Source of the DNA: Amycolatopsis cihanbeyliensis
GTDB lineage: Bacteria; Actinomycetota; Actinomycetes; Mycobacteriales; Pseudonocardiaceae
Reading direction: 5' to 3'
NCBI RefSeq assembly: GCF_006715045.1
Contig: NZ_VFML01000001.1
Coordinates: 2,944,501-3,008,500, forward strand
DNA: 64,000 bases
A program made the translations under genes and the position numbers. Below, one piece after another: positions 8,131-31,605 of the stretch. The notes below the pieces were generated by a model that made no database searches, was not told the DNA's origin, and saw nothing but the letters and a program-made list of their open reading frames with translations. Position 1 is the first letter of the stretch; every line of letters starts with the position of its first letter.

Positions 8131-8960
8131 GGGCGTTGCTACGCCGTATCGGCGAGGACCATCGGCCGGCCGCCGCGGCGGAGGAGGAGGTCCTGGACGC
8201 GATACTCGCCCGTGGCCGGCGCCGCCTGCGCTACCAGCGTATGGGTGCGGCCGCGGCGGTGATCGCGCTGATCGGCGGGCTCGGCACCGGGGTCGCTGCG
8301 CTCCAGCCGGAAGGCTCCGGTACCGCCGAGCGGGTGCCGGCCGCGTCCGGGCTGCAACGCGGTGAGTCCCGGCCAGGGGGGCTACCGGGTTGGGAGCCGG
8401 TGGACGACAGCGTGTCCTGCACGCGCCCCGGGGAGTTACCACCGCCGTACAGCGGCATCGAGACCACCGAACCCGGTCTGCACGGACCGGCACTCGCCCC
8501 GAAGGTGATCTCCAGCGCGGAGTTTCGCACCCTCGTGCGCCATACCCTGCCGGACACTCACCTCGAACTCCTCGAACTGGAATACGAGAAGTACCCCCCA
8601 AGGGGTTCGGTGCTCACGGAGGTGGTACTGGATACGGCACCGGTCGGCACAACGGCCCTGATCGGCATGCGGGCTTCCCGGGCGTACGACGATGCCGCGG
8701 CGGAGGCCGATCGTCACCTGGTGTGCGACTCGTGGCGCCTGCGGCTGGCCCCGGACATCGTGCTCCAGCTCCCGCCCCGATCCGCGCCGGCCGACAGACC
8801 GGCCTACCAACAGCTCGAGATCTACCGGACCGGCTACCCGACCTACCTGATATGGACGAGTAGCTGGATCGACTCCGAGGACGAACACGGGTCCGTTCCG
8901 CCCGCGCTGACCACTGAACAACTCACCGAGCTGGGCAGGAGGCTGGCTACGGCCCGCTAG
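8112..8960 (+). CDS. Single-pass membrane protein, probable sigma-factor partner (anti-sigma-like)
   Basis: 282 residues. A cytosolic N-terminus of about 45 residues with basic stretches is followed by one membrane helix (about 46-66, AAAAVIALIGGLGTGVAAL). An extracytoplasmic domain of about 210 residues has two or three cysteines and no motif I recognise. Overlap with the sigma gene and the topology match anti-sigma or accessory proteins of SigE-family ECF factors. A zinc-binding HxxxCxxC anti-sigma motif is absent, so the regulatory role is inferred from context. The stop codon lies inside the inverted repeat that bounds the downstream repeat array. Confidence 0.75.
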   Translation: MFDDELRALLRRIGEDHRPAAAAEEEVLDAILARGRRRLRYQRMGAAAAVIALIGGLGTGVAALQPEGSGTAERVPAASGLQRGESRPGGLPGWEPVDDSVSCTRPGELPPPYSGIETTEPGLHGPALAPKVISSAEFRTLVRHTLPDTHLELLELEYEKYPPRGSVLTEVVLDTAPVGTTALIGMRASRAYDDAAAEADRHLVCDSWRLRLAPDIVLQLPPRSAPADRPAYQQLEIYRTGYPTYLIWTSSWIDSEDEHGSVPPALTTEQLTELGRRLATAR

Positions 8961-9108
8961 TACTACAGGGGCTGAGCCCGGCGTGTTGGCCGTCCAGGTA
9001 ACCGTGTTGGCCGTCCAGGTAACCGAGTTTGCTGTTCGCGTAACCGAGTTGGCGACTCCGGTAACCGGGTTGGCCGTCCACGTGGGCAACTTTCCCCTGT
9101 AGTACTAG
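8957..9108. repeat. 21-bp tandem repeat array bounded by perfect 15-bp inverted repeats
   Basis: Five contiguous 21-bp units fill 8983-9087. On the minus strand they share a core GC(C/A)AAC(A/T)CG followed by GGTTAC. The array is flanked by CTAGTACTACAGGGG (8957-8971) and its exact reverse complement (9094-9108). The flanking repeats contain the stop codons of both converging genes. There are no spacers, so it is not a CRISPR array. Related 21-bp arrays occur at 18341-18424 and 31501-31605. Confidence 0.85.
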
Positions 9109-9743
9109 AGAACGATCGCGAGGACGCCGACCCAGGAGAAGGCGACCCCGGCGGCGGCTCCGAGCACGACCCACCGCACGATCGGCAGCTTGCGGGCGAG
9201 CCACAACGACGGCGAGAGGCCCGCGGTCACCATCACCGCCGCACCCAAGGTCAGCCAGTTCGTGGTCTCGGCGGCCAGGGTGCTCGTCAGCGCGAGCATC
9301 GCCACCGCCACCACCACACCGACGAACGCGGCGACGATCAGGCCGGTCCCCCACGGCGTGGGCTCGGTGCCCTGCGGATCGCCCCCGAGCAACCGGCGGG
9401 CCAGCACGGTCACCCCGCCATTGCGCGGAGGGTGGACGAGCTGCTCGGTCGCGGTCACCGGATCCACGTAGTTCACCGGCTCACCGACGGTGCCCGCGAC
9501 CCGCGCGGCGAGTTGCCTGCCCCGCTGCGACACCACCGCGGCCGCCTCGTCCTCGGGACCGGTGCCTGCCCGGATGAAGGCTGCCGCGACCCGAGCCCAT
9601 TCCTGGAGCGCCTCGGTCAGTTCGGCGCCGACCACCCCGTCCGGGTACTCGGTGTCCGCGTCGTATCCGGCCAGCACCACCCGCTCGCCCTGGACCCGCA
9701 ACTCCACGTGAAGGCCTCCGTTGATCGCCCGACTCCCGGCCAC
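9105..9743 (-). CDS. DUF2537 membrane protein
   Basis: 212 residues. The N-terminal half (about 1-120) is soluble, and the C-terminal 90 residues form three predicted membrane helices, corresponding to the DUF2537 domain seen in the mycobacterial neighbour of sepH (Rv0882, from memory). The function is unknown. The GTG at 9743 lies 15 bases after the upstream methyltransferase stop, so the two are probably co-transcribed. The mycobacterial protein is shorter, so the N-terminal soluble part is an extension. The stop codon lies inside the inverted repeat bounding the 21-bp array. Confidence 0.75.
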   Translation of the reverse strand: MAGSRAINGGLHVELRVQGERVVLAGYDADTEYPDGVVGAELTEALQEWARVAAAFIRAGTGPEDEAAAVVSQRGRQLAARVAGTVGEPVNYVDPVTATEQLVHPPRNGGVTVLARRLLGGDPQGTEPTPWGTGLIVAAFVGVVVAVAMLALTSTLAAETTNWLTLGAAVMVTAGLSPSLWLARKLPIVRWVVLGAAAGVAFSWVGVLAIVL

Positions 9744-9758
9744 GAGGCATCAATGTAC

Positions 9759-10565
9759 TCACGGAACGCCCATCTCGTAGAAGGCCACGGCCGCGGATGT
9801 CGCCACGTTGAGCGAATCGACCCCGGTGGCCATCGGGATGCGGACCGCCAGATCGGCGGCGGCCAGCGCCGCCTCGGACAGCCCGTACCCCTCCGAGCCG
9901 AGCAGCAACGCCACCCGCTCCGGTCGCCGGTCGCGCAGCGCGCGCAGCTCGATGGCCTCCGCGCGCGGGGTGAGCGCCGCGATCCGGAACCCCTGCGCAC
10001 GCAACTGCTCGAGGCCGCACGGCCACGGGTCGAGGGTGCCGAACGGGACCCGCAGCACATGCCCCATCGACACCCGCACGCTGCGCCGGTACAGCGGATC
10101 CGAGCACCCGGAGCCGAGCAGCACCCCATCCACGCCCAGCGCCGCCGCGTTGCGGAACAGCGCGCCGAGGTTCTCGTGATCGCCGACCCCCTCCAGCACG
10201 GCGAGCGCCCGTGCCCCGGCGGCGATCCCGCTCGCCGGTGGTCTCGGCACCCGGTCGGCGACCGCCAGCACCCCGCGGTTGAGGTGGAAACCGACCACCT
10301 CGGCCATGGTCTCCGCGGACGCGACATAGGCGGGCGCCGCCGTTCCGGCAAGATCACCCGCCAGCTCGCGGATGCGGCGTTCTACTCCGAGTAGCGCCCG
10401 TACGGGGTACGGCGACTCGAGCAACCGCCGTACCACCACGGTGCCTTCGGCGATCACCAAACCCCTGCCACCGGGCCGGTCCGGACGCCGGTCGGCGGTG
10501 GTCAGATCGCGGAAATCCGTCAGCCGCTCGTCGCCGGAGTCGTCGATGAAAACCTCGCGTGCCAC
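9759..10565 (-). CDS. TrmH/SpoU-family RNA 2'-O-methyltransferase
   Basis: 268 residues. The C-terminal SPOUT domain carries the three family motifs: ENLGALFRNAA near 155-165, LLLGSEGYGLS near 220-230 and the knot strand SLNVATSAAVAFYE at the end. The N-terminal 110 residues form the substrate-binding domain of rRNA-type enzymes. The likely role is SAM-dependent ribose methylation of rRNA or tRNA; the target nucleotide is not predictable from sequence. The start is a GTG at 10565. It is syntenic with Rv0881 beside DUF2537. Confidence 0.9.
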   Translation of the reverse strand: MAREVFIDDSGDERLTDFRDLTTADRRPDRPGGRGLVIAEGTVVVRRLLESPYPVRALLGVERRIRELAGDLAGTAAPAYVASAETMAEVVGFHLNRGVLAVADRVPRPPASGIAAGARALAVLEGVGDHENLGALFRNAAALGVDGVLLGSGCSDPLYRRSVRVSMGHVLRVPFGTLDPWPCGLEQLRAQGFRIAALTPRAEAIELRALRDRRPERVALLLGSEGYGLSEAALAAADLAVRIPMATGVDSLNVATSAAVAFYEMGVP

Positions 10566-10790
10566 CGCCGGAGTGTGTCACCCGCTCCCGCGGGGAGCCC
10601 GCGCTACTCCGAACGCGCGGGGCCACCGCGCGGTGCACACGGCACGGTCGCACAAAGTTAGACACCGGTGACGGACGGCACCAGTTTGGCCGCTAGCCGT
10701 AGGGGAAAACCCTGTGTCACGGTTGTCCGCCGGCAGTTCCGCGAGAACAAAAGGCGCGTCAGTTATGGCCGAGCAGAACGGGGACACGCC

Positions 10791-12287
10791 ATGGGCAAGG
10801 ACCTGTTGTCGGATCCGTTCAAGCCACGCGATCGCGGAAAGTACCGGCGTAAGGTACAGCGTTGCCTGGACACCCTGGCACGCATGCTGTCCGACGGCAG
10901 TTTTTCCTTTCCCCGCAAGCACATCGGCTTCGAACTAGAACTCAACCTCGTGGACGACACCATGCGGCCCGCGATGAGCAACGCCGCGGTGCTGGAGGCA
11001 CTGGACGATCCCTCGTTCACCACCGAGCTCAGCCAGCACAACCTCGAGCTGAACGTCCCGCCCCGCCCGCTGGCAGGCGATTCGGCGCTGCGACTGGAAG
11101 ACGAGCTGCGGGACTACCTGGCAGCCGCCGGCGGTAAGGCGCGGACCGCGGGAGCCTCGGTGGCGATGATCGGGATCCTGCCCACGCTCGTCCGGGAACA
11201 CTTCGACCAGAAATGGTTGACCAACAATGCCAGATACTCGTTACTGAACGACGAGATTTTCGCGGCGCGCGGTGAGCGGACCGTGCTCTCCATGGAAGGC
11301 GCGGGCCTCGCCGGCCAGCAGCCCGAACGATTGCGCAGCTTTGCCGAGTCGATTCTGCCCGAGGCGGCCTGCACCTCGATGCAATTGCACCTGCAGGTGC
11401 CGCCGGAAGAGTTCGCCGCACACTGGAACGCGGCCCAGTGCCTGGCGGGCATCCAAGTCGCGCTCGGCGCCAACTCCCCGTTCCTGCTGGGTAAGGCCCT
11501 GTGGCACGAGACCCGGATCCCGCTGTTCCTGCAGGCGACCGACACCCGTCCGGAAGAGCTGAAGAACCAGGGTGTGCGGCCACGTGTGTGGTTCGGCGAG
11601 CGCTGGATCACCTCGATCTTCGACCTGTTCGAGGAGAACGTCCGCTACTTCCCCGGGCTGCTGCCGGAGACCGACTCCGAGGACCCGATCGAGGCGCTGG
11701 AGTCCGGGCTGGCCCCGAAGCTGACCGAGCTACGCCTGCACAACGGCACCGTCTGGCGGTGGAATCGCCCGGTGTACGACGTGGTGGACGGGAAACCGCA
11801 CCTGCGGGTGGAGAACCGGGTGCTGCCCGCCGGACCGACCGTGCTGGACATGATGGCGAACGCCGCCTTCTTCTACGGCGCCCAGCGGGCCCTGGCCGAA
11901 GCCGACCGTCCGGTGTGGACTCAAATGTCCTTCCAGGCCGCGGAGGAGAACCTGTACGCGGGGGCGCGCAACGGGTTCGACGCCCAGCTGTACTGGCCGG
12001 GCATCGGTTGGCTCCCGCCGGACGAGTTGGCCCTGCGCGTGCTGCTGCCGCTGGCCTACGAGGGGCTGCGGCGGTCGGAGGTGTCCGAGCAGGCCAGTGC
12101 CCGCTATCTCGGGGTGATCGAGCAACGCTGCCTGGCCAAACGCACCGGATCGACCTGGCAGCGGCAGGCGGTGGCGCGGGCACAGGAACGCGGCATCGAC
12201 CGGGACACCGCACTGGCCGGGATGCTGGCGCGCTACCTGGAGCTCTCCCGATCGGAGCGGCCGGTACACGAGTGGCCGGTGGAGTGA
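10791..12287 (+). CDS. Glutamate-cysteine ligase family 2 (GCS2) protein
   Basis: 498 residues. The carboxylate-amine ligase fold of GCS2 is recognisable: the metal/glutamate segment FPRKHIGFELELNLVDD near 45-60, the SQHNLELNVPP acidic strand, and the later LRVENRVLPAGPTVLDMMAN stretch. Such enzymes ligate glutamate to an amine or cysteine with ATP. Since actinomycetes use mycothiol rather than glutathione, the physiological substrate is uncertain. The ATG at 10791 (after a GGGGACACGCC leader) matches the family start, and the longer reading from 10668 is not supported. It precedes tetR by 41 bases. Confidence 0.82.
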   Translation: MGKDLLSDPFKPRDRGKYRRKVQRCLDTLARMLSDGSFSFPRKHIGFELELNLVDDTMRPAMSNAAVLEALDDPSFTTELSQHNLELNVPPRPLAGDSALRLEDELRDYLAAAGGKARTAGASVAMIGILPTLVREHFDQKWLTNNARYSLLNDEIFAARGERTVLSMEGAGLAGQQPERLRSFAESILPEAACTSMQLHLQVPPEEFAAHWNAAQCLAGIQVALGANSPFLLGKALWHETRIPLFLQATDTRPEELKNQGVRPRVWFGERWITSIFDLFEENVRYFPGLLPETDSEDPIEALESGLAPKLTELRLHNGTVWRWNRPVYDVVDGKPHLRVENRVLPAGPTVLDMMANAAFFYGAQRALAEADRPVWTQMSFQAAEENLYAGARNGFDAQLYWPGIGWLPPDELALRVLLPLAYEGLRRSEVSEQASARYLGVIEQRCLAKRTGSTWQRQAVARAQERGIDRDTALAGMLARYLELSRSERPVHEWPVE

Positions 12288-12328
12288 GACCATAGGCGCC
12301 TACCTGTTCCCGGTGGGAGGTCTCGCGC

Positions 12329-12940
12329 ATGCCAAAGATCATCGGAGGTTCCCTCGCCGCGCACCGCGAGCAGGTGCGGGCCAGGGTGTTCGAGGCACTG
12401 CGCAACCAGCTCTACGAGCGGGGTTTCGACGCGATCACGCTGTCCGGGGTGGCCGCCGAGGCCAAGCTGGGCCGGACCGCGATGTACAACCACTTCCCGG
12501 ACAAGGAGCACCTGCTGATCGCCTTCGTCGAGGACGAGGCGACCCGGTACGTGGCCAGGCTGACCGAGGCGGTCGCGGCCGCGACGGACCCGATCGGCAA
12601 GCTCGAGGCCTTCGTCCGGCTTCAGCTGCGCGCCCTCGCCGACTACCACCTGCCGCCCGGCAACGCGCTCGCCTCCACCCTGGCGCCGAGCGCCTACCGG
12701 AAGGTGGCCGCGCACGCGGACCCGATCACCGAGAAGCTGCGCGAGATCGTCACCGCGGGGGTGCGGCAGGGCTGCCTCCCCGGAGAGGATCCGGACCTGC
12801 TGGTTCCCATGATCAGCGCGGCACTGGCCAGCCGCGAGGTGGTCGACGTGCCGCCGGAGCAGTTGGACAAGGCGATCGAAGGCGCGGTGCGGTTCGTGCT
12901 ACGGGCGGTCGGCGCGAACCCCAGCCGGGATCGAATTTAG
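12329..12940 (+). CDS. TetR-family transcriptional regulator
   Basis: 203 residues. The N-terminal HTH (about 18-62, with the recognition segment KLGRTAMYNHFPDKEHLL) is classic TetR. The C-terminal ligand domain is not assignable. The ATG at 12329 has GGGAGG 8 bases upstream. A 10-base palindrome TAGGCGCCTA at 12293-12302 lies just before the gene and could be an autoregulatory operator. The last codons overlap an iron box serving the next gene. It may regulate the upstream ligase or the heme oxygenase; which one is unknown. Confidence 0.9.
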   Translation: MPKIIGGSLAAHREQVRARVFEALRNQLYERGFDAITLSGVAAEAKLGRTAMYNHFPDKEHLLIAFVEDEATRYVARLTEAVAAATDPIGKLEAFVRLQLRALADYHLPPGNALASTLAPSAYRKVAAHADPITEKLREIVTAGVRQGCLPGEDPDLLVPMISAALASREVVDVPPEQLDKAIEGAVRFVLRAVGANPSRDRI

Positions 12941-12955
12941 GGTAGCCTAACCACG
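12937..12955 (+). promoter_or_regulatory. IdeR/DmdR-type iron box upstream of heme oxygenase
   Basis: TTAGGGTAGCCTAACCACG matches about 14-15 of 19 positions of the actinobacterial iron box (TTAGGTTAGGCTAACCTAA). It lies 54 bases before the heme oxygenase start and overlaps the stop codon of the preceding tetR gene. Iron-loaded repressor would silence the gene when iron is plentiful. Confidence 0.75.
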
Positions 12956-13009
12956 AGATCTGCCGTACCCTCTTTCTGACAGGTTGTCATATCGACGGAG
13001 GGTGTCCCC

Positions 13010-13699
13010 ATGGCAGCACCGACGGCAGCAACCTCGCCGGACCTCGACGAGTCCACGACGTTCGCCCGGACCCTGCGCGAGTCGACTCGCGAGGTGCATG
13101 ACCGCGCGCACCACTCCGCCTATATGGACGCGCTGCTGGAAGGCAGGCTGAGCCTGCACGGCTACGCGCAGCTCGCGGCCCAGTACTACTTCATCTACCA
13201 GGCGCTGGAGCAGGCCAGCGACGCCATGGCCGACGACCCGGTCGGCGCGCCGTTCGTGATCGACGAACTGCGCAGGATGCCCGCGTTGCGGGCGGACCTG
13301 GAGTTCCTGCTCGGTCCGGACTGGGAGGCGCGGCTACACCCGGTCGAGGCGACGAAGACCTACGTGCGGCGAATGCACGCGGTGGCCTTCGACTGGCCGG
13401 GCGGCTACGTCGCGCACCACTACACCCGCTACCTCGGCGACCTCGCGGGCGGTCAGGTGGTGCGGTCGCTGCTGCGCAAGACCTACGGGGTGGAGGGTGC
13501 GGGCGCGCTGTTCTACGACTTCAGCACACTGGGCAGCCCGAGCGCGTTCCGCGGGCGCTATCGCGAGTTGCTGAACACCGCCGGCTGGGACGCGGCCGAG
13601 CGGGAACGCATCATCGCGGAGACACTGACCGCGTTCGAGCTGAACATCGACGTACTCACCGAACTCGCGGAAGCTGTGGTTCCGGCAACATCACGTTGA
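13010..13699 (+). CDS. hmuO: Heme oxygenase (biliverdin-producing, HmuO type)
   Basis: 229 residues. It opens heme to biliverdin, CO and ferrous iron, allowing heme to be used as an iron source. The proximal heme histidine is H30 in RESTREVHDRAHHS. The distal-helix signature HHYTRYLGDLAGGQ near 140-153 is intact, and the length equals that of corynebacterial HmuO. The ATG at 13010 follows GGAGGGTG. The upstream iron box implies induction by iron starvation. Its neighbour sodA would deal with oxidative stress from released iron, though the two genes are separated by 174 bases and appear to have separate promoters. Confidence 0.95.
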   Translation: MAAPTAATSPDLDESTTFARTLRESTREVHDRAHHSAYMDALLEGRLSLHGYAQLAAQYYFIYQALEQASDAMADDPVGAPFVIDELRRMPALRADLEFLLGPDWEARLHPVEATKTYVRRMHAVAFDWPGGYVAHHYTRYLGDLAGGQVVRSLLRKTYGVEGAGALFYDFSTLGSPSAFRGRYRELLNTAGWDAAERERIIAETLTAFELNIDVLTELAEAVVPATSR

Positions 13700-13873
13700 C
13701 CTCAACCGGACTCGAACTTGCAGGATCGACACGGAAGCAGGGGCCCGTTTTTCGGGAGGACACAGCGAATTCTTCGCCGTGCCGAAAAGTGTCCCCGGTT
13801 CGCCGGGCCACACCGCTGCTACTAGGTTTGGGTAAGACAACAGACTTTGTGTCGAAACTAAAGAGGAGGGCTG

Positions 13874-14497
13874 ATGGCCCGGTACGAGCTTCCGGATCTC
13901 GACTACGACTACGGCGCCCTGGCTCCGCACATTTCCGGCGAGATCAACGAGCTGCACCACAGCAAGCACCACGCGACCTACGTCAAGGGTGCCAACGACA
14001 CGCTCGAGAAGCTTGCCGCGGCCCGCGAGGCCGACGACTTCGGCTCGATCGTCGGGTTGGAGACCACGCTGGCGTTCAATCTCGCCGGGCACGCCAACCA
14101 CGTGGTGTGGTGGAAGATCCTGTCCCCCAACGGCGGCGACAAGCCGACCGGTGAGCTCGCGGCCGCGATCGACGACGCCTTCGGCTCGTTCGACAAGTTC
14201 AAGGCACAGTTCACCGCGGTGTGCACCACGATCCAGGGCAACGGCTGGGGCGCCCTGTCCTGGGACCCGATCGGCAAGACGCTGATCACCCAGCAACTGC
14301 GCGACCACCACAACAACCTGGTGCTGCCCACCCAGCCGATCCTGCTGGTGGATGTCTGGGAGCACGCGTTCTACCTGGACTACAAGAACGTGAAGCCGGA
14401 CTACGTCAAGGCGCTGTGGAACGTCTTCAACTGGGAGGAGATCGGCAAGCGGTTCGAGAACGCCCGCAACGGCGGCAACGGGCTGCTGCTGAGCTGA
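13874..14497 (+). CDS. sodA: Superoxide dismutase, Fe/Mn type
   Basis: 207 residues. It dismutates superoxide in the cytosol. All four metal ligands are in family motifs: the histidine of [10 protein letters not shown] (H28), the second histidine of GHANH, and the Asp and His of [13 protein letters not shown]. The ATG at 13874 has GAGGAGG 5-6 bases upstream. The metal preference (Mn or Fe) cannot be decided from these residues. A strong intrinsic terminator follows at 14516-14546, and a strong iron box lies 184 bases beyond the stop. Confidence 0.97.
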
Positions 14498-14515
14498 ACA
14501 CCACGAACGCTCGAG

Positions 14516-14546
14516 CGGGGCTCTTCCCTCGGGAAGGGCCCCGTTT
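14516..14546 (+). terminator. sodA intrinsic terminator
   Basis: A 12-13-bp GC-rich stem runs from CGGGGC at 14516 to GCCCCG ending at 14543, with one wobble pair in the middle. TTT follows immediately. It lies 19 bases after the sodA stop. Confidence 0.8.
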
Positions 14547-14593
14547 CCGCGCGCCCGGCACCCGCGGTCGGTGCCGCCGGCCGGAGCACACGT

Positions 14594-18006: not shown

Positions 18007-18055
18007 CGTCACCTGCCGGGAATGCGTGTTCCGTGCCGCGGGTAGCCTTCCTCAG

Positions 18056-18328
18056 GTGGAGGAACCGAGCAACGATGCCGGGGGCACGGGCGGGTTGTCC
18101 GCGCCGCCGGAGCTGCCGACACGGCTGCTCGAGCTGTGGCCGGTGGTCGTGGTGGGCACCGGACTGTGGCTGGCCGCGTTCCTCGTGTTGCTGCTGACCG
18201 GGCAGGACGGCGTGTGGTTGTGGACCACCCTGGCCGGGTGGGTACTCGGGCTGATCGGCTTCGGGGTCATGGCCTGGCAGCGCGTCGCCGCCCGGCGCGG
18301 CGCCCGGGGAGCGCAGCGGGGTCTCTGA
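18056..18328 (+). CDS. DUF2530 small membrane protein
   Basis: 90 residues with two membrane helices (about 33-52 and 58-78) and a basic C-terminus. It matches the DUF2530 family, which includes the mycobacterial Rv0879c of nearly equal length. The function is unknown. The GTG at 18056 is probably the first base of the mRNA: TAGCCT (18043-18048) ends 7 bases before it and there is no ribosome site. The long upstream in-frame extension overlaps the permease gene and was rejected. A 21-bp repeat array follows. Confidence 0.82.
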   Translation: MEEPSNDAGGTGGLSAPPELPTRLLELWPVVVVGTGLWLAAFLVLLLTGQDGVWLWTTLAGWVLGLIGFGVMAWQRVAARRGARGAQRGL

Positions 18329-18340
18329 CGCACGCGAACG

Positions 18341-18424
18341 GCAAACTCGTGCGCGTGGCGGGCAAACTCGTGCACGTGGGGAGCAAACTCGTGCGCGTGG
18401 GGAGCAAACACGCCGCGAGCACGG
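18341..18424. repeat. 21-bp tandem repeat array (second locus)
   Basis: Three close copies at 18341-18361, 18362-18382 and 18383-18403, and a degenerate fourth at 18404-18424, share the core GCAAACTCG plus GTGC(G/A)CGTGG. The array fills the gap between two converging genes and abuts the stop codon of the right-hand one. Confidence 0.85.
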
Positions 18425-21301
18425 TCAGGTGAGCAGGGTGGTGGCCGTGGGGTCGTCCAGCAGGGCGGCGAGCAGGTGCCGGTCCGGCCAGCGGTCGGCG
18501 GCCCAGGCCAGCGCGTTGGCCAGGCCCGCCGAGCTGTCCTCCGCATGCGGGTGCTCGGCGCACCACCAGGTCACCTCGTGCGGCTGCCCTTCGACGGTGA
18601 CGGTCAGCCGGTCGTGCACCACCACCCCGCCCGCGGGAAGCTCGAGAGCCAGCAGCTCGGCGGCGAGTCGCACCGCGCCCAGCTCGGCCCAGTCCACGTA
18701 CTCGCCGTCCGCGGGTGGCACGGCCGCCACGCACTCGCTCGCGGCCGGCAGGTCCAGCAGCTCGGCCAGCCTGCCTGCGCGGTCCCAGCCGGGCACCGCG
18801 ACCAGCCGCCGCGCGGGCAGCACCGCGGCGAGCCACGGCCGGTCCAGCACCATGGCCCGCTCCGCGTCGGCCACCGCGCCCTCCAGGGTGCGCACCCGCT
18901 CGGGTGGGTCGAGCTCGGGCAGCGGCAGCTCCGCGTCGGCCAGCGCGGCATGCGCGCGGGCGGCGGGCCCCGGTGCCACCGCGCGCTCCGGATCACCGAG
19001 CCGGTCCAGCAACTCGGCCGCGTCCGCCGCATCGGCGATGACCAGTTCGGCCAGCACCCCGGCCGCCCGCAGCAGGTCGGCGCGCACCCCGAGGTCGGGC
19101 ACCGGGTCGTACAGCCCGGCCAGCGCGGTGGCCTCGGGCAGCCGCCACTGCGCGGGGGCCCGCCCGGCCAGCAGCGCGTACCGGGCGATCCACCAGCCGG
19201 TATGCCCGCCCGGCTCGGTCAGCGCCCGCCAGGTATCCGGGCTCGCGGCGAGCAGCCGCAAGGCGGCCGGCCAGGCGTCGTCGGCGACCAGATCGAGGTC
19301 GCGCACGGCATGCACCCGGCAGGGGGCGACCGCGTCCCACCAGTCAGCCTCCTCGGGCAGGTCGTGCTCGGGGCCGGCCGGTTCCTCGTCGGTGAGCACG
19401 GTGAAGGAGTCGAGTACCCCGACGCCGGCGAGCACCTCGGCAGGCCAGCGGCCGGCGAACTCCGCGTCCAGCACCTCCAGCGGCGCGTCCGGGCCGAGTG
19501 CCTCCGGGTCCAGCACCTCCAGCAGCTCGGCTCCGGGCAGCACCAGCTCCTCGGCCCGCCGCCAACCCGATTCGCCCGGCAGGGCCAGCCCGGCGAGCCC
19601 GCCCGCGGCCCCGGGGCCGGACTCGGAAACCAGGCGCAGTAGCACCTCGGCCAGTGGTCCGGTGTCCATTCCGGACAGCGCGTCGGCGAGGCTGCGCTCG
19701 ACCGCCTCGCGCAGCTCCGGCGCGGCGAGCAGGTCGGCGGGACCCGCCTTCCGCGCGCCCAGCCGCTCCAGCAGCGGGTGCGCGGCCTCCGGGTGCACCA
19801 CGCGCAGCCCGACGATGTCCACTTCGGACAGCAGGCCCGGCAGCCCGGTACCGGTGTCGGCAAGCAGCGCCCCGCGCGGGCCCGGCAGGGTGCGCCCGTC
19901 CACCAGTGGAACCGGCAGCGCGCCCAGTTCGTCCAGCGCGAGCCGCCCACCGTCCACCGCGGCCAGCAGCGCCCCGTAGAGCCGGTACCACCAGCCCACC
20001 GGCCGCGCGATCCCGGTGACGGCCTCGATCAGCTCGGCGGTGCCGACCGGGGTGGCGCCCACCCGCGCGGCCACCCTGGCCCGCGGATGGCCGCACAGCG
20101 GAGCGGCCACCAGGCCGGGCAACACCTCCGCCAGCGGCTCGACCAGGTCGGGAGCGTCGGCCTCGAGCAGCCTGGCCCGCCCACCGGGTAGATCCGGCCC
20201 ACCGGAGGCGGCGGGCAGCCACGGATCGGCACGCAGTGCCGCGCGCACCAGCTCGCGCACGGACTCATCTACTTCGGACAGCGGGAAGCCCGCGGCGGGG
20301 ACCAGCGCGAGCCGGTGCTCCGGCGCGACCGCGCGCACCAGCTCGGGATAGCCTCGCGCGGCGGACTCCAGCACCGCGGTAGCCGCCTCGCCGGGCAGCA
20401 CCCTGCGGCGGGAGGGCTCGATCGGCAGGGTCGCGATCAGCCTTGCGGGCAGGGACAGCCGCTCGTCGGTGGGGGTGGGCGCGTGCAGCACATCGGCCTC
20501 CAGCGGCCGTGGCACACCCGCCTCGTCCACCGGGAGCGCCCAGCGGGCGGCCGCACCCGGCACGGCGTGGGTCAGCCAGCGCAGCGTGGTGCCGTCCGGC
20601 CCGGTCAGCTCGAGCAGGCCCGCACCGAAGTCGGTGCGCCGCCACTCCTTGCCTTCCACCTCGATCGCGCCGAGCCAGGGCAGGGCCAGCAGCAGCTCGG
20701 GTACCTCGGCGGCGAGCCGGTCCACCAGCCCCGCCGTGTCCACCCCCTCGGCCAGCGGCAGCCGCACCTCGGTGTCGAAGCCCTCCGGTGGGGGCGGCTC
20801 CCCTGGCGGCAGCGGCCAGGGGAGCCGCAGTACCGGGACGGCCCCATCAGCGCCGGTGGCCGCCACGGTTCGGGCCGCGGAGAAGGCGACCCCGCCGTCG
20901 CGGGAGACCACCCGGGGTTCGGTGCAGACCGCGAGCACGGCGGCGAACCCCACGCCGAACCGGCCGACCGTGCGGCCCTCGGGCTTCGCCGAGGCCCGCA
21001 GGGAGGCCAGCGCGGCGACCCCGGCGGCATCCAGCGGGGCGCCGGTGTTGGCCACCCGCAGCTCGCGCCCGGCGAGCGTGACCCGCAGCCTCCCCGGGGT
21101 CCCCGCCAGTGCCGCGGCGTCCGCGGCGTTCTGCGCGAGCTCGACGAGCAGCCGGTCGCGGTAGCCGCCGACGCGCAGGTCGTGCTCGGCGTTGGTGTCC
21201 TCGGTGAACCGGGTCGGCGAGTCCCGCCAGGCCCGCAGTACCGAGGAGCGCAGCCCGTCGATCCCGAAGGACTCGGCGGGTTCAGCGGCCCGCGGATGCA
21301 C
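18425..21301 (-). CDS. Sacsin-like GHKL ATPase protein
   Basis: 958 residues. The N-terminal 200 residues form an Hsp90-like (GHKL) ATPase module as in sacsin N-terminal domains: the N-box LVELAQNAADAAALAG near 53-68, VANTGAPLD for the G1 region and GRFGVGFAAVLAV for the glycine-rich lid. The remaining 750 residues are Ala/Leu/Glu-rich, with no domain I can name. The start is a GTG at 21301. It begins within the last 20 bases of the DUF3027 gene, so the two are translationally coupled. Function in bacteria is not established; chaperone-like activity is only an analogy to sacsin. Confidence 0.82.
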   Translation of the reverse strand: MHPRAAEPAESFGIDGLRSSVLRAWRDSPTRFTEDTNAEHDLRVGGYRDRLLVELAQNAADAAALAGTPGRLRVTLAGRELRVANTGAPLDAAGVAALASLRASAKPEGRTVGRFGVGFAAVLAVCTEPRVVSRDGGVAFSAARTVAATGADGAVPVLRLPWPLPPGEPPPPEGFDTEVRLPLAEGVDTAGLVDRLAAEVPELLLALPWLGAIEVEGKEWRRTDFGAGLLELTGPDGTTLRWLTHAVPGAAARWALPVDEAGVPRPLEADVLHAPTPTDERLSLPARLIATLPIEPSRRRVLPGEAATAVLESAARGYPELVRAVAPEHRLALVPAAGFPLSEVDESVRELVRAALRADPWLPAASGGPDLPGGRARLLEADAPDLVEPLAEVLPGLVAAPLCGHPRARVAARVGATPVGTAELIEAVTGIARPVGWWYRLYGALLAAVDGGRLALDELGALPVPLVDGRTLPGPRGALLADTGTGLPGLLSEVDIVGLRVVHPEAAHPLLERLGARKAGPADLLAAPELREAVERSLADALSGMDTGPLAEVLLRLVSESGPGAAGGLAGLALPGESGWRRAEELVLPGAELLEVLDPEALGPDAPLEVLDAEFAGRWPAEVLAGVGVLDSFTVLTDEEPAGPEHDLPEEADWWDAVAPCRVHAVRDLDLVADDAWPAALRLLAASPDTWRALTEPGGHTGWWIARYALLAGRAPAQWRLPEATALAGLYDPVPDLGVRADLLRAAGVLAELVIADAADAAELLDRLGDPERAVAPGPAARAHAALADAELPLPELDPPERVRTLEGAVADAERAMVLDRPWLAAVLPARRLVAVPGWDRAGRLAELLDLPAASECVAAVPPADGEYVDWAELGAVRLAAELLALELPAGGVVVHDRLTVTVEGQPHEVTWWCAEHPHAEDSSAGLANALAWAADRWPDRHLLAALLDDPTATTLLT

Positions 21302-25437: not shown

Positions 25438-25444
25438 GGGCGCA

Positions 25445-25831
25445 TCACGGGTCAAGGTCGCGGGCCACCGCGCGCATCACCTCGGCGATTCGCTTGGTGT
25501 GCTTGCGGTCGGGGTAACGGCCACGGCGCAGGTCCGGCTGAACCCGGCTCTCCAGCAGCTTGATCATGTCGTCGACCAGCCCGTGCAGCTCCTCGGCGGG
25601 ACGGCGCCGCGCCTCGGCCACCGAAGGCGGCGGGTCGAGCAGGCGGACCGAGAGGGCCTGCGGGCCACGCCGCCCGTCGGCGACGCCGAACTCCAGCCGC
25701 TGGCCGGCCTTGAGCCCCTCCACCCCCTGCGGTAGCGCGGCCTTGCGGATATAGACGTCCTCACCGCCGTCCTGGGTGACGAAGCCGAATCCCTTCTCCG
25801 CGTCGTACCACTTGACCTTGCCGGTCGGCAC
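25445..25831 (-). CDS. cspB: Cold-shock domain protein with C-terminal extension (CspB-like)
   Basis: 128 residues. Residues 1-66 are a cold-shock domain with the RNA-binding motif [17 protein letters not shown]. About 60 extra residues follow, containing a helical, basic [20 protein letters not shown] segment. The same two-part form exists in the mycobacterial protein at this locus (Rv0871). It probably binds single-stranded RNA or DNA. The GTG at 25831 aligns with the family start; a GTG three codons earlier is equally close to a GAAGGA site. Confidence 0.9.
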
Positions 25832-25994
25832 TGCCCTCACCGTTCCTTCACTGTGCTCACGAGTCCGCATGACCAGGCGGGCCATGCACGACGAAACGCG
25901 TCCTAGGGCGTACCCAGGACGCGCAGGCACCAAGCCTATCCCGGCTGCTGCACTGGGGAGAAGCAGATACCCGGCACCGCACTAGGATGGCGGC

Positions 25995-26243
25995 ATGGAG
26001 ACAGCCGTTCGCCCGAACACGCCGCCCGGACCCGGTGGGCCACGGCGCAAGTCCGTGCTGATGCGACTGGGCATCGGGCTGTTCGCGCTCGGGATGCTCG
26101 CCGTGGTCGCCGTGTTCGTGATGTTCGCCGCCGGGTGGCAGAACCTGCCGGTCTGGCTCAGCGCCGCGGCCGGGGTGATCACCCCACTCGGCCTGGCCTT
26201 CGGCCTGATCGCACTGGTCCGGGAGGCGAAGCGGACCAGCTAG
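25995..26243 (+). CDS. Small two-helix membrane protein of unknown function
   Basis: 82 residues: a basic, Pro-rich N-terminus, two membrane helices (about 27-47 and 53-72), and a short basic tail. I do not recognise a family. TAGGAT at 25983-25988 ends 6 bases before the ATG, so expression is probably leaderless. Its stop overlaps, tail to tail, the HAD phosphatase stop by 4 bases. Confidence 0.75.
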   Translation: METAVRPNTPPGPGGPRRKSVLMRLGIGLFALGMLAVVAVFVMFAAGWQNLPVWLSAAAGVITPLGLAFGLIALVREAKRTS

Positions 26244-26866
26244 GGCACGCCGGCCAGCCGGTCCGCGTTGGCCGTGAGCCAGCCGGGGAACTCCTCCAGT
26301 GAGTCCAGCACCACCTCCGCACCGGCGTCCGACAACTCGGCCCGCGTGCACGGGCCGGTGGTCACCCCGACCGCGACCACACCCGCCGCCAGCGCACCCC
26401 GGACATCGCCGACGTGGTCCCCGACGTAGGCGAGCGCCCCGTGCTCGATCAGGGCCCGCGCCTTCTCCGCCGACCACAGCTCACCCACCAGCATGCCCAC
26501 CTCGAGGCCGAGCGCACGCAGATGCAGGGCGGCGTTCGGGCCGTACTTCCCGGTGACGACCAGGGTGCCGCGCCCGGCCTCGCCGACGGCACGCAGCGCC
26601 GCCGCCGCGCCCGGCAAGGCCACCGTCCTCGGCACCACGATCTCCGGGTAGATCTCCCGGAACCGGGCAACCAGGCCCGGCACCCGCTCCTCGGGCACCC
26701 CGAACCCGCGCAGCACGTCCTCCAGCGGCGGCCCCAGGTTCGCCGCGAAGTGCTCCCCGTCCAGCGTGAGCCCGGCCTCGGCGCCCAGCGCGTCCATCGC
26801 CGCGACCATGCCGGGGCGAGGGTCGATCAGCGTCATGTCCAGGTCGAAGCCGATGGTGATGGTCAC
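26240..26866 (-). CDS. HAD-superfamily hydrolase (phosphoglycolate phosphatase-like)
   Basis: 208 residues. Motif I is FDLDMTLID at the N-terminus, motif II the threonine/serine of LVVTGKYG, motif III the lysine of AEKARAL and motif IV YVGDHVGDVRGA. The small alpha cap places it in the Gph/PGMB-like subfamily, but the substrate is undetermined. A GTG at 26866 was selected: TACCGT (minus strand, 26873-26878) lies 6 bases upstream and supports leaderless transcription; an earlier in-frame start at 26899 has no support. Confidence 0.88.
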   Translation of the reverse strand: MTITIGFDLDMTLIDPRPGMVAAMDALGAEAGLTLDGEHFAANLGPPLEDVLRGFGVPEERVPGLVARFREIYPEIVVPRTVALPGAAAALRAVGEAGRGTLVVTGKYGPNAALHLRALGLEVGMLVGELWSAEKARALIEHGALAYVGDHVGDVRGALAAGVVAVGVTTGPCTRAELSDAGAEVVLDSLEEFPGWLTANADRLAGVP

Positions 26867-26922
26867 CCCGCCACGGTAGCCCGGACGGCAATTGGACACA
26901 GGAACATCTCACGTCCATCTGC

Positions 26923-26947
26923 TTGACAAATAGGACCACTGTGTCAA
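26923..26947. promoter_or_regulatory. Candidate TetR operator / promoter of the tetR-R2lox operon
   Basis: TTGACA (26923-26928) and TGTCAA (26942-26947) form a perfect dyad with a 13-base spacer. The left arm doubles as a consensus -35 box, and CAAACT at 26945-26950 could be the -10, placing the start point at or next to the GTG of tetR. Confidence 0.55.
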
Positions 26948-26956
26948 ACTCGACCT

Positions 26957-27574
26957 GTGTCGAATATCACTCGATTCGCGGTGCGTGCTCGTGCCTCGCT
27001 GCGTGAGGAACTCCTCGAAGCCGCCGCCGACCTGCTGCCGGACAAGGGGTACGCGGGCCTGCGGATGGCGGACGTGGCGACCCGGGTGGGCGTGAGCAGG
27101 CAGACCGTCTACAACGAGTTCGGCAACAAGGCCGAGCTCGCGCAGGCGGTGGTCCTGCGCACGACCTCGACCTTCCTGGACGGGGTGAACCAGCGGCTGA
27201 CCGAGGCCGAGGACCTGCTCACCGGCGTCCATCACGCCGTGACGTTCACCATCGAGCACGCGCAGGCCGACCGGCTTGTCGCCGCCGCACTGGGCACCGG
27301 AACCGCCGCCGACCTGCTGCCGTTGCTGACCACCCGAGGCGAGCCGGTATTGCGCGCGGCCATGGACCTGGTGCGCACCCACTACCGCAGCAGGCTGCCG
27401 GACCTGGAGGAGGCCACCACCGAACTGCTCGCCGAAACCGCGGTGCGACTCACCCTGAGCCATCTGGTGCTACCGACCCACCCCGCCGCCGGGACCGCCG
27501 ACGCCGTCTGCGCGGTGCTCGGTCCGGCCCTCCGGCACGCCGGGCAACAACCTCCCGGTGAACCCTCCCAGTGA
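26957..27574 (+). CDS. TetR-family regulator of the R2lox operon
   Basis: 205 residues. The TetR HTH is clear ([20 protein letters not shown], about 38-57). The start is a GTG at 26957. It lies 19 bases before the R2lox gene on the same strand. Mycobacteria carry the same pair (Rv0232-Rv0233), which supports a dedicated regulator. The TTGACA/TGTCAA dyad in its promoter is a natural autoregulatory site. The ligand is unknown. Confidence 0.93.
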
Positions 27575-27593
27575 ACACAGAAAGGTCGCGGAT

Positions 27594-28571
27594 ATGACTG
27601 CCAGCGCCGCCAGCACCACCCCGCACCGCACCGGCTTCCGCTCCCTCAGCAGCGGCGGCCTGAACTGGGACTCCTTCCCGCTGCGGCTGTTCGTCAAGGG
27701 GAACGGCAAGTTCTGGAACCCCGCCGATCTCGACTTCAGCCGCGAGGCCGCGGACTGGGCGAGCCTGAACGACGAGGAGCGGCGCTCGGCGACCTTCCTG
27801 TGCGCCCAGTTCATCGCGGGTGAGGAGGCCGTCACCGAGGACATCCAGCCGTTCATGGGCGCGATGGCCGCCGAGGGCAGGCTCGCCGACGAGATGTACC
27901 TCACCCAGTTCTGCTTCGAGGAGGCCAAGCACACCGAGGTCTTCCGGCGCTGGATGGACGCGGTGGGACTGAACGAGGACCTGCACCCGTTCGTGGCGGA
28001 CAACCCGCACTACCGCACGCTGTTCTACGAGGAGCTGCCGTCCTCACTCGGGGTGCTCGCCACCGATCCCAGCCCGGCCAACCAGATCAGGGCCAGCGTG
28101 ACCTACAACCACGTGATCGAGGGCTGCCTGGCGCTGACCGGGTACTACGCGTGGCAGAAGGTCTGCACCGCCCGCGGGATCCTGCCCGGGATGCAGGAAC
28201 TGGTCCGCCGGATCGGCGACGACGAGCGCAGGCACATGGCCTGGGGCACCTTCACCTGCCGCAGGCACATCGCCGCGAACGACGCGCTGTGGGACGTGGT
28301 GCAGCGGCGGATGGGCGAGTTGCTTCCGGTCGCGCTGGACATGATCCAGTGGGTCACCGACCAGTTCGACGAACCGCCCTTCGGCATCGACTCCGAGGAG
28401 TTCACCCGGTACGCGGCCGATCGCGCGCAACGGCGACTCGGCGCCATCGCCTCGGCCCGCGGCATGCCGGTCGAGCAGGTCGATGTGGACTACTCCCCGG
28501 AACGGCTGGAGGACACCTTCGGCGAGGAGGACGCCAGGGAGTTCGCCGAGGCCGCCCGCCCCACCGGCTGA
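27594..28571 (+). CDS. R2-like ligand-binding oxidase (R2lox)
   Basis: 325 residues. It has a ferritin-like Mn/Fe protein fold related to ribonucleotide reductase R2 but is an oxidase with a bound fatty-acid-like ligand. All metal ligands known from the M. tuberculosis enzyme are present with a constant offset of 9: E77, E110, H113, E176, E211 and H214. The valine and tyrosine that form the self-generated ether crosslink are also kept (V80 and Y171). The ATG at 27594 follows AAAGG. Co-transcription with tetR is expected. The natural substrate is unknown in any organism as far as I know. Confidence 0.95.
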
Positions 28572-28629
28572 TCACCGGTTGGACACACCCGGCTGCCACG
28601 CACCCTGCCCCGGGTTACTGTGCCGGTAG

Positions 28630-28699
28630 ATACCAATCCGACCGAAAGCAGCCGGTCAGCTGGCCGGCTTGAGCGGGCGGCTTTCGGTCTTCTTGGTAT
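28630..28699 (+). other. Long structured inverted repeat upstream of the K+ channel gene
   Basis: Outer arms ATACCAA (28630-28636) and TTGGTAT (28693-28699), a 3+3 internal loop, then GACCGAAAGC (28640-28649) and GCTTTCGGTC (28680-28689) give 17 perfect pairs. A nested AGCCGG/CCGGCT hairpin sits inside (28650-28669). It lies between the R2lox stop and the channel start. It may be an R2lox terminator, a regulatory leader or a small mobile element. Confidence 0.6.
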
Positions 28700-28746
28700 T
28701 GTCGCGCGACCAGACGAACCGACCCAGTCGTACGGCGGGGAGCAGC

Positions 28747-29775
28747 GTGCCCTTCTTTCTGACCCGGTTACTGGCCAGGATGACGTTCCTGCGCAGCTGG
28801 GTGACTCCGGTGGTGGTGGCCGTCTTCGTGTCCGCGACGGCATGGCCGCTGCTGGCGCTCGCCGAGGGTTGGGGCAGCGAGATCGTCCAGCCCGCCAACT
28901 ACTGGTGGTGGTTCGTGGTCACCGCCTCCACCGTCGGCTACGGCGACTTCTATCCGGAGTCGGCGGGGGGCCATATCGTCGGCGTCTACGTCATCGTCGG
29001 CGGTATCGCCACGCTCACCACGATCTTCACCAGGCTGGCGACAGTGCTCGAGAACGCGAGGGGACGACGGATGCAGGGCGCGATCACCGTGGACGCCTCC
29101 GGCCACACCGTACTGCTCGGCTACACGGCCGGACGGACCGAACGCATCGTCGACCAGCTGCTCGCCGAGGACGCCGGGCAGGTGGTGGTCTGCGTATGGG
29201 ACGACGTCGGGAGCCATCCGATGCCGGACCGCGAGGTCGACTTCGTGCGCGGTGAGCTGACCGAGCGCGAGGTACTGGAACGCGCGGGTGTGCACCGGGC
29301 GCGCTGCGTGCTGGTGGACGCGCGGGACGACAACGAGGCGCTCGCCGTGGCGGTGACCGTGGATCATGTGACCGACGGCGCCCACGTCGTGGTGACCCTG
29401 CGGGATATGGCCAGGGTGTCGCTGATCCAGTACGTGGACGAGAGCATCCGGTGCGTGCAGTGGCACACCCCGCGCATGATCACCGAGGAGCTGCAGTCCC
29501 CCGGCATCGCGGAGGTCTACGCCGAGCTGATGACGCACGGCGGAACCAACACCTACTCGGCGACGCTGCCGGAGTCGCTGGGGTCGGTGCGGGTCGGTGA
29601 CTGCCAGACCGCGCTCGGCCGCACGCACGGCGCGATCGTGCTCGCCGCCAGGGCGGACGGGGAACTGATGGTCAACCCGTCCTGGCAGACCGAGCTGCCC
29701 GCGGGCGCGATCCTCTACTACGTCGCTCCCCGGCGCCTGGCCCCCGACCAGATCGCCACCACGCTCCGCTCCTAG
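28747..29775 (+). CDS. Two-helix potassium channel with RCK (TrkA-N/TrkA-C) domains
   Basis: 342 residues. TM1 is about 17-38, the pore helix ends in the selectivity filter TVGYGD at 62-67, and TM2 is about 74-95. A cytosolic NAD/nucleotide-binding TrkA-N domain follows (about 105-225) and a TrkA-C-like domain (about 260-335). This is the layout of MthK/Kch-type channels that open on ligand binding. The GTG at 28747 has GGGGAG 4 bases upstream. The stop overlaps the convergent acyl-CoA synthetase by 4 bases. A strongly folded element precedes it. Confidence 0.93.
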
Positions 29776-31394
29776 CGACCGAGCAGGGCGCGGGACTGCT
29801 CGCGCATGTCCACCTTGCGGACCTTGCCGGTCACGGTCATCGGGAACTCGTCCACCACATGCACGTAGCGCGGGATCTTGTAGTGCGCCAGCGTGCCATG
29901 GCAGAACTCGCGCAGCCGCTGCGCCGTCAGCTCCTCGGCGCCCTCGCGCAGCCGCACCCAGGCCATCAGCTCCTCGCCGTACTTCTCATCCGGCACGCCG
30001 ATGACCTGCGCGTCCAGGATGTCCGGATGGGTGTACAGGAACTCCTCGATCTCCCGGGGGTAGATGTTCTCCCCGCCACGGATCACCATGTCCTTGATCC
30101 GGCCGGTGATGGTCACATAGCCGTCCTCGTCCAGCACCGCCAGATCGCCGGTGTGCATCCACCGCGCGGCGTCGATCACCTCGGCGGTCTTGTCCGGCTG
30201 CTGCCAGTACCCCAGCATCACCGAGTACCCGCGGGTGCACAGCTCTCCCGGCGTGCCGCGCGGCACGGTGCGCCCCGTCTCCGGGTCGACGACCTTGACC
30301 TCGAGGTGCGGCCCCACCCTGCCCACGGTGGACACCCTGCGTTCGACGGAGTCGTCCGCACGGGTCTGGGTGGACACCGGCGAGGTCTCGGTCATCCCGT
30401 AGCAGATGGAAACCTCCGCCATGCCCATCCGCTCGATGACCTGCTTCATCACCTCGACCGGGCAGGGTGAACCCGCCATGATCCCGGTGCGCAGGCTGGA
30501 AAGGTCGTAGGCGTCCACCTCCGGCTCGGCCAGCTCGGCGATGAACATCGTCGGCACCCCGTACAGCGAGGTGCAGCGCTCGGCCTGCACGGCGTCCAAC
30601 GTGGCCTTCGGATCGAAGGAAGGCGCCGGGATCACCATGCAGGCCCCGTGGCTCGTACAGGCCAGGTTGCCCATCACCATGCCGAAGCAGTGGTAGAAGG
30701 GCACCGGGATGCACACCCGGTCGGCCGCGGTGTACCCGCACAGCTCGCCGACGAAGAAGCCGTTGTTCAGGATGTTGTGGTGGGACAGCGTGGCGCCCTT
30801 GGGGAAACCGGTGGTGCCCGAGGTGTACTGGATGTTGATCGGGTCGTCGGCGCTGAGCCCGCCGGCCACCTCGGCCAGCCGCGCCGGATCGGCCCGCCTT
30901 CCGCCAGCCAGCAGCCGGTCCCACGACTCGCCGCCGAGCAGGACCACCCGCGCCAGGTCCGGGCAGCGCGGGCGCACCTGCTTGATCATCGCGGCGTAGT
31001 CCGACGTCTTGAACGACTCGGCGGCGACCAGCAGGGACACCCCGGCCTGGTTCAGCACGAACTCCAGCTCGTGCGAGCGGTAGGCCGGGTTGATGTTCAC
31101 CAGGATCGCGCCGATCTTGGCCGTGGCGTACTGCAGAAAGGTCCACTCTGCACGGTTGGGCGACCAGATACCCACCCGGTCCCCCTTGCCGACGCCGAGG
31201 TCCAGCAGGCCCAGCGCCAGCGCGTCCACCTCGGCGGCCAGCTCGCGATAGGTCCAGCGCAGGCCCGCGGCCCGATCCACCAGCGCGTCCCGGTCCGGGT
31301 GTGCGGTCACGGTCCGGTCCAGGTTGTCCCCGATGGTGTCGCCGATCAGCGGGACCTCGGCGGTCCCGGACACGTAACTCGGTACGGCGGGCAT
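29772..31394 (-). CDS. AMP-forming fatty-acyl-CoA synthetase (FadD-like)
   Basis: 540 residues. The ANL-superfamily P-loop motif [12 protein letters not shown] is near residue 195, the A5 motif YGMTETSP near 340, the hinge [16 protein letters not shown] near 430, and the catalytic lysine lies in the C-terminal TVTGKVRK. It should activate fatty acids to acyl-CoA through acyl-AMP. The ATG at 31394 has AGGAGG 6 bases upstream. The chain-length preference is not predictable. The promoter side contains the third 21-bp repeat array. Confidence 0.93.
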
Positions 31395-31500
31395 GGTGTC
31401 CTCCTGCGCCGACGACGGTGGCAACCCGGCCCGAGTCTAGGAAGCCGGGCCGGAGGCGGCCATCTGCGAATGGAGAGGTCTGGGCCGGTTGGTCCGCTCG

Positions 31501-31605
31501 CTCGCGAACCCGACGTGAGCAGCAAACTCGCCGACGTGAGCAGCAAACTCGCCGACGTGAGCGGCCAACTCGGGCGCGTGAGCAGCAAACTCGCGGATGT
31601 GGCCG
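31501..31605. repeat. 21-bp tandem repeat array (third locus)
   Basis: Four good units at 31522-31542, 31543-31563, 31564-31584 and 31585-31605, plus a partial one at 31501-31521, share GC(A/C)AACTCG followed by a GACGTGAGC-like second half. Unlike the other two arrays it lies between divergent genes (acyl-CoA synthetase and yccF), close to the yccF promoter. Confidence 0.85.

Follow-up and report, generated by a model that had tools for sequence, protein, structure and literature searches.

A 64,000-bp stretch of the Amycolatopsis cihanbeyliensis genome (C1:2944501-3008500 of 7.435 Mb in two contigs; here called the window) carries three intergenic arrays of 21-bp direct repeats. These belong to a dispersed repeat family that stands mainly between converging genes, and single arrays occupy convergent gaps in which the strong stem-loops seen in most other such gaps are rare. 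We hold, with roughly even confidence, that the arrays are dispersed iteron-like docking sites for a putative sequence-specific DNA-binding protein that would act at the 3' ends of genes.

Arrays with a strictly spaced core

The three loci reported in a first-pass annotation of the window are all present and placed as it had stated, two between convergent genes and one between divergent genes:

Array 1, 8982..9086, minus strand: five 21-bp units with a leading 12-base half, in a gap between convergent genes
Array 2, 18329..18412, plus strand: leading 12-base half at 18329-18340, then four cores at 18341-18412
Array 3, 31510..31593, plus strand: leading half, then four cores at 31522-31593, in the gap between an AMP-binding gene and a YccF gene

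The description of four to five contiguous units holds as five for array 1 and four for each of the others; the supposed fifth unit of array 3 (GCGAACCCG at 31504) lies 18 bp upstream and out of register. The five in-register cores of array 1, of which one carries a single mismatch, occupy 8982-9074 of the minus strand, and the last core of array 2 is of the ACACG form. A genome-wide search for the core GC[AC]AAC[AT]CG paired at 21 bp returned 267 matches (145 forward, 122 reverse), so the window loci are not alone; the reversed control pattern gave none, and chance is therefore excluded.

Closer analysis used 2.0 Mb of the genome (600001-1000000, 2150001-2550000, 2840001-3640000 and 5620001-6020000), in which the stretches outside the window's surroundings were picked partly for arrays already seen there. 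This sample contains 50 arrays covering 124 of the 267 pairs, which scales up to an estimated total of about 110; the hundreds of loci anticipated earlier is too high. Arrays have three (15 arrays), four (16), five (15) or other numbers of units (4). Neighboring exact cores within 34 bp of each other are spaced by exactly 21 bp in 124 of 125 cases, as claimed, and no other period prevails. The same spacing holds for 263 of 272 such neighbors in 94 named loci of relatives. These loci come from a scan of one genome per species that yielded at least 120 stretches, with 94 taken as Pseudonocardiaceae loci and 26 excluded as belonging to other or unclear taxa.

A logo built on 105 internal units of the first 1.2 Mb is somewhat biased by our tolerating up to two core mismatches during array extension. 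In it G1, C2, A4, A5, C6 and C8 are invariant and G9 and C14 nearly so; position 3 (A/C) and positions 13, 18 and 19 (A/G) each allow two letters, and positions 10-12 are free. Core position 7 is A in 74% of the last cores of arrays and T in 70% of inner cores. Where two cores 42 bp apart are exact, the one between them, on which this test places no condition, is also exact in 76 of 80 cases, and in 146 of 170 in the named relatives. Identity of the 12-bp halves is 65% within an array against 57% for different arrays (0 of 1000 permutations), and thus the array-specific half proposed at first pass is real but only weakly so. The cores and their spacing are held while the remainder drifts.

The layout is unlike CRISPR, as had been said: in place of repeats split by unique spacers, the 12-base halves follow a common pattern across loci. 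A protein-coding unit of seven codons was also rejected, since the best-conserved positions do not resemble codon degeneracy and arrays typically follow stop codons. A mini-hairpin of the form CACG-N4-CGTG within units was discarded as well, because most inner cores read ACTCG while the CGTG is unchanged.

Placement between converging genes

Genes were called with a custom script using a hexamer model trained on the genome itself; 83-88% of bases were called coding, and single gaps may be misjudged. The 41 array gaps in the sample comprise 26 convergent, 13 codirectional and two divergent gaps, against 134 convergent and 284 divergent among 907 background gaps of 60 bp or more. The convergent excess is strong (26/41 versus 134/907, p = 2.6e-13) and had not been foreseen by the earlier annotation, and divergent gaps are avoided (2/41 versus 284/907). 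The placement of an array in a divergent promoter, although true of array 3, is therefore an exception, being one of two such cases in 41. In all, 26 of the 134 sampled convergent gaps carry an array, in regions partly picked for arrays. The bias recurs in the named loci, where 40 of 72 array gaps are convergent compared with 20 of 229 other gaps; 32 arrays lying outside any clean gap were excluded from these counts.

Arrays in codirectional gaps lack strand polarity (seven sense and nine antisense in A. cihanbeyliensis; 15 and 19 in the named loci). In the first 1.2 Mb, 15 of 22 arrays with an upstream gene in their own sense start -8 to 18 bp from its stop, and 13 of 24 with a converging next gene finish -20 to 21 bp from the stop of that gene.

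Stem-loops are rare in single-array gaps

U-tract terminators are rare in high-GC actinobacteria. We scored stem-loops in convergent gaps of 45-300 bp, calling a hairpin strong when the best 44-nt energy was at least 8 kcal/mol below that of mononucleotide shuffles; five of the 26 convergent array gaps fall outside this length range. A strong hairpin is present in two of 16 single-array gaps compared with 47 of 75 gaps lacking both arrays and elements of a second dispersed family, F3, described below (rank test, p = 0.0014), and single-array gaps also differ in hairpin strength from 27 length-matched gaps (p = 0.013). One of the two single-array gaps with a hairpin is half of a double array. 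Single arrays are barely more structured than shuffled sequence, with a median energy difference of -1.4 kcal/mol from mononucleotide shuffles, and the stable stem-loop that characterizes intrinsic terminators is thus mostly missing from them. Among F3 gaps, five of 13 have a strong hairpin.

Helical phasing of diverging arms

Inverted double arrays differ in layout among genomes. Nine of the ten in the 2.0 Mb of A. cihanbeyliensis have arms that point toward each other, their inner cores 9-11 bp apart. Diverging arms prevail in A. acidicola, A. alkalitolerans and others, where the linkers measure 10-103 bp. Across 37 pairs, the diverging-arm linkers fit a period of 10.5 bp best (R = 0.55). 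When similar linkers are collapsed in either direction, 30 distinct linkers remain (R = 0.54, p = 1.5e-4, or p = 0.001 allowing for period choice between 8 and 14), although all phasing p values here assume independent linkers. A second set of 45 linkers between exact cores from 10 genomes gives R = 0.60 at the same phase, and p = 2e-4 for 27 classes when each genome and distance is entered once. G167 and G176 share linkers with the first set; when they are removed, 16 classes remain (p = 0.007), one of which (G320) also overlaps that set. The linkers used represent part of the matches only; for example, the 79 matches of G186 contributed none. Amplified copies that were nearly identical count once, and the phasing set excludes G164 because of its resemblance to A. 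acidicola. At 13 loci of G186, the inverted double cores all have a 21-bp linker of partly palindromic sequence.

A patchy distribution

Of 390 Pseudonocardiaceae genomes, a set that includes A. cihanbeyliensis, 337 have no match. Three or more matches occur in 34 and exactly one in 19, making 53 genomes with a match; single matches carry little weight, as the reversed control also yields one or two in a number of genomes. One genome of another genus of the family has 327 matches. Of 397 genomes sampled evenly from the order, a three-core match occurs in six, all Pseudonocardiaceae, and in none of the 318 sampled genomes of other families. The distribution is thus patchy within Pseudonocardiaceae.

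We also considered kinship with 21-bp repeats of other phyla and dismissed it, since 22 of 27 stray loci (the 26 excluded stretches and one viral stretch) lie within a mechanical open reading frame; stray matches would presumably turn up anyway, since 85,000 genomes contain many 21-bp tandem repeats. Lentibacillus (Bacillota; L066, L087, L125, L153 and L166) carries 21-bp tandem arrays that are rich in G+C and include a GCMAACTCG stretch; four of these five loci lie within a mechanical open reading frame and may be coding.

The window arrays in relatives

The genes flanking the window arrays are as follows:

8112..8960, plus strand: gene left of array 1, no Pfam match
9105..9707, minus strand: gene right of array 1, DUF2537 (PF10801)
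18026..18328, plus strand: gene left of array 2, DUF2530 (PF10745)
18425..21301, minus strand: gene right of array 2, 958 aa, no Pfam match
29772..31394, minus strand: gene left of array 3, AMP-binding enzyme (PF00501, PF13193)
31625..32002, plus strand: gene right of array 3, YccF (PF03733)

Array 2 takes up most of its gap, in which the DUF2530 gene and the 958-aa gene converge. No Rfam match at gathering score was found in the window.

The comparison with the close relative G085 covered 0.4 Mb, with a median identity of 92.5% over 310 reciprocal best hits. Each of the four array sites found there is also occupied by an array in A. cihanbeyliensis; at alignable sites the last unit is identical or almost identical, and inner units vary in number and sequence, which supports local turnover of units, as part of the interpretation given at first pass. 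Three of the seven arrays in the matching A. cihanbeyliensis stretch, namely the three window arrays, lack a G085 counterpart. The gap orthologous to array 2 has F3 in place of the array and no hairpin, and the genes flanking arrays 1 and 3 are not adjacent in G085 by our gene calls. The array 2 gap is readable in 27 of 30 relatives. It holds an inverted double array in G115, and passes the hairpin threshold in G389, G154, G086, G163 and G186, with G146 near it (-6.7); in six relatives the genes overlap by 4 bases, and the remainder have short or unremarkable gaps.

Other dispersed families

F3 (CCTGAACGTGGC ... GCCACGTTCAGG, about 79 bp with inverted ends) is found in the window at 42479-42557 and 50941-51019. 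Its motif matches lie in convergent gaps in 12 of 16 cases in 1.2 Mb of A. cihanbeyliensis and in eight of 12 in G085. Arrays (26) and F3 (14) never occur together in any of the 134 convergent gaps. A third family, GGTTAGCCCGCTAAACGCAC (for example, C1:3195946-3196020 and C1:3218035), has two or three copies at some places and is also present in G085, with GGTTTGCCCGCTAAACGCAC; 14 of its 19 matches are in divergent or codirectional gaps. A dispersed sequence with GGGCCGCCAGGCCC has 12 copies in 1.2 Mb of A. cihanbeyliensis but is absent from the 0.4 Mb of G085; a further one, with TGTTCCTGAAC, has 10 copies and one copy, respectively.

C1:764332, 906416, 949728, 985193, 2316095 and 2521718: example sites of the GGGCCGCCAGGCCC and TGTTCCTGAAC sequences

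Proposed docking sites at gene ends and competing explanations

That the arrays are bound by protein as double-stranded DNA is suggested by the strict two-turn spacing, the conserved cores, the absence of polarity, the phased arms and the lack of RNA structure in single arrays; an action on transcription at gene ends is suggested by the placement and the missing stem-loops. Each 21-bp unit would bind one molecule or dimer of the putative protein, and with units of two turns all would face the same side of the helix. The resulting patch, mostly in convergent gaps where a stem-loop usually stands, would act on the double helix in both directions, either as a roadblock or insulator that halts transcription reading through from either side or as a topological site lying between the two genes. 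Protein binding and transcript ends, both among the functions suggested at first pass, are plausible, with support from the convergent bias and the phasing. A more specific form, which we advance only tentatively, is a protein-dependent bidirectional RNA polymerase barrier built of tandem two-turn sites, which in some Pseudonocardiaceae would have replaced stem-loop terminators at a fair share of convergent pairs and would be spread and renewed partly by small mobile elements.

Several observations weigh against docking sites at gene ends. The stem-loop of an intrinsic terminator, missing from most single-array gaps, is present in gaps with inverted double arrays in A. cihanbeyliensis, all five of those scored having a strong one, and 13 of the 41 array gaps are codirectional. 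The phased linkers may hold decayed 21-bp units; if the long linkers are such units, the evidence shrinks to two centre classes (about 10 and 20 bp) that recur in several lineages. Diverging pairs with linkers of 5-35 bp are rare in two array-rich genomes, with two in G182 and none in G170, whose reversed control gives two. In Amycolatopsis itself 66 of 80 genomes have no match, and the function therefore cannot be essential in general. Finally, in two relatives, G167 and G164, the arrays form the body of an element of about 230 bp with inverted ends and CTAG edges.

This last observation supports the alternative that the arrays are mobile or selfish DNA, that is, internal repeats such as transposase-binding iterons of small non-autonomous elements for which convergent gaps are the least harmful insertion sites. 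We consider this possible, though less likely than not. G167 has 30 near-identical double arrays of two subtypes and shares linkers with A. alkalitolerans loci. In the 20 copies fetched, similarity starts and stops sharply across about 230 bp; 13 have both inverted ends, of the TAGTGTNNNGTGATC type and mostly with CTAG at the edge as judged by eye, and the remaining copies have one end altered, missing or out of view. G164 shares linkers with A. acidicola loci and has the same element design.

L310-L329 (G167), and further loci L331-L340: elements of about 230 bp, each with two inverted arrays

The end pattern matches 50 times in G167 and 11 times in G164. Its reversed control matches 26 and two times, respectively, since one of the forms that the end takes satisfies the control as well. 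Seven elements from the fetched loci of G164, G167 and A. acidicola are 209-231 bp long; four are in convergent gaps, and six have CTAG at both edges. In L338 both genes have a stop codon that overlaps CTAG. Terminal inverted repeats, the hallmark of miniature inverted-repeat transposable elements, are thus present in 13 of 20 copies and in these seven. The two-sided CTAG fits a target-site duplication; neither an empty site nor a parent element was found for the G164 and G167 elements. Some TAGTGTNNNGTGATC ends lie at contig ends (G167 C2:9-23 and C6:14-28), hinting at a longer multicopy element.

Array 1 likewise lies within an inverted repeat with ends of its own:

8957..8971, plus strand: left arm of the perfect 15-bp inverted repeat CTAGTACTACAGGGG around array 1, containing the stop codon of the left gene
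9094..9108, minus strand: right arm of the same repeat, containing the stop codon of the right (minus-strand) gene

CTAG stands at the outer ends of this repeat (8957-9108), and its inner 14 bases occur exactly in the genome only in these two arms, with one other place at one mismatch. Array 1 is an exception in its genome, however: flanks with inverted repeats of at least 9 bp number three of 41 compared with 5.4 expected from shuffled flanks, and CTAG is at both stops in only one of the 26 convergent array gaps. An array-holding piece of about 350-440 bp is repeated at four A. cihanbeyliensis loci (C1:939307, 961467, 2477829 and 2871907; 78-97% alike in pairs), which together with the patchy distribution favors mobility. 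It is the only duplicated piece found in considering DUF222/13E12-like genes, recognized by eye, as a spreading agent, and that idea was dropped. Arrays of different loci are generally not near-copies, with halves only 57% alike, yet their cores are intact. Mobile-looking elements account for part of the spread, and the A. cihanbeyliensis arrays look kept in place rather than newly inserted.

A less probable explanation, though one that sequence alone cannot separate from a polymerase barrier, is that the arrays draw DNA gyrase or a nucleoid protein, which would deal with the positive supercoils arising where genes converge; the like has been proposed for BIME-2 sites of Escherichia coli. The convergent placement, the two-turn period and the phased arms would all fit, and BIME-2 elements are intergenic and strong gyrase sites (PMC6379681). 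However, the same source reports the BIME-2 gyrase signal to be independent of transcription, and the link to supercoiling is thus not simple even there. The sequence-specific 9-bp core also seems stricter than a bending or wrapping signal would need, and the 10.5-bp component of unit A+T content is not the strongest harmonic.

We think it improbable that the arrays are RNA-level terminators whose transcript folds or recruits Rho. They do follow stop codons, stem-loops are common in other convergent gaps (47 of 75), and the double arrays of A. cihanbeyliensis have strong central hairpins. But single arrays are barely structured and lack strand polarity, and exact 21-bp spacing and helical phasing would be useless in RNA. 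An RNA hairpin between arms is not supported: the arms of one locus are no more alike than those of different loci (9 loci in A. cihanbeyliensis, 15 in A. acidicola, seven in A. alkalitolerans and four others; p = 0.3-0.8), which speaks against RNA pairing. Nor did the arm comparison bear out the idea that both arms of a double array carry the same letter at the A/C position. Functionless tandem duplication by slippage is very improbable. Unit turnover between close species and the slightly greater likeness of units within an array would fit it, but cores are kept while halves diverge, spacing is strict, arms are phased and placement is biased to convergent gaps.

Relation to known repeats

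REP/BIME elements, which are RAYT-associated and often found at gene 3' ends, are closest in placement, being a dispersed extragenic family sometimes in alternating orientation. The array unit, however, is a direct, non-palindromic repeat, and a strong stem-loop accompanies single arrays in only two of 16 gaps. The RAYT transposase domain PF01797 has no match in 20 of 21 genomes tested, A. cihanbeyliensis included, and the positive one is the array-bearing G186; a RAYT/REP origin is thus unsupported. Plasmid-origin iterons and the end sites of Tn7- and Mu-type elements are direct repeats of 19-22 bp on the same helix face, with one protein per repeat. The arrays resemble iterons in their direct repeats and helix-face layout but, unlike them, are scattered over chromosomal gaps, and no replication or transposase gene is among the eight Pfam-scanned window genes at or near arrays. 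In eukaryotic rRNA genes, tandem protein sites downstream of the genes (the Sal box, bound by TTF-I) stop polymerase, and TTF-I acts in one orientation. We liken the arrays to these in proposed mode only, claiming no sequence or protein kinship, and the arrays have no polarity.

The closest family in style is the STAR elements of Staphylococcus aureus. Both are intergenic direct repeats with a short conserved motif, a locus-specific spacer and a distinct last ("anchor") spacer, and both vary greatly in copy number among related species, with positions conserved within and not between species. STAR has the motif T(G/A/T)TGTTG(G/T)GGCCC(C/A), spacers of about 40 bp and mostly one motif per locus (PMC3532100). 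The arrays differ in their 21-bp period, usual three to five units, preference for convergent gaps and phased diverging arms; in the main text of the STAR paper the word "convergent" does not occur (PMC3532100). The 105-unit logo has no conserved GGCCC block in either orientation, as the 14-bp STAR motif would require, and the 21-bp spacing leaves no room for spacers of 40 bp or more. A literature search of partial coverage, with most subscription papers and all preprints outside it, found no description of the 21-bp array family, and one passage of PMC12306157 has nothing on it.

How transcription ends in high-GC actinobacteria is poorly understood, and the arrays stand where stem-loops usually do. 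With a readable binding code and natural controls in the form of orthologous gaps holding an array, a stem-loop, another element or nothing, they would make protein-dependent termination or insulation directly testable. If the barrier proposal is true, a repeat family would have taken over a gene-end function species by species, as a functional counterpart of the terminator-protein site repeats of eukaryotic rRNA genes.

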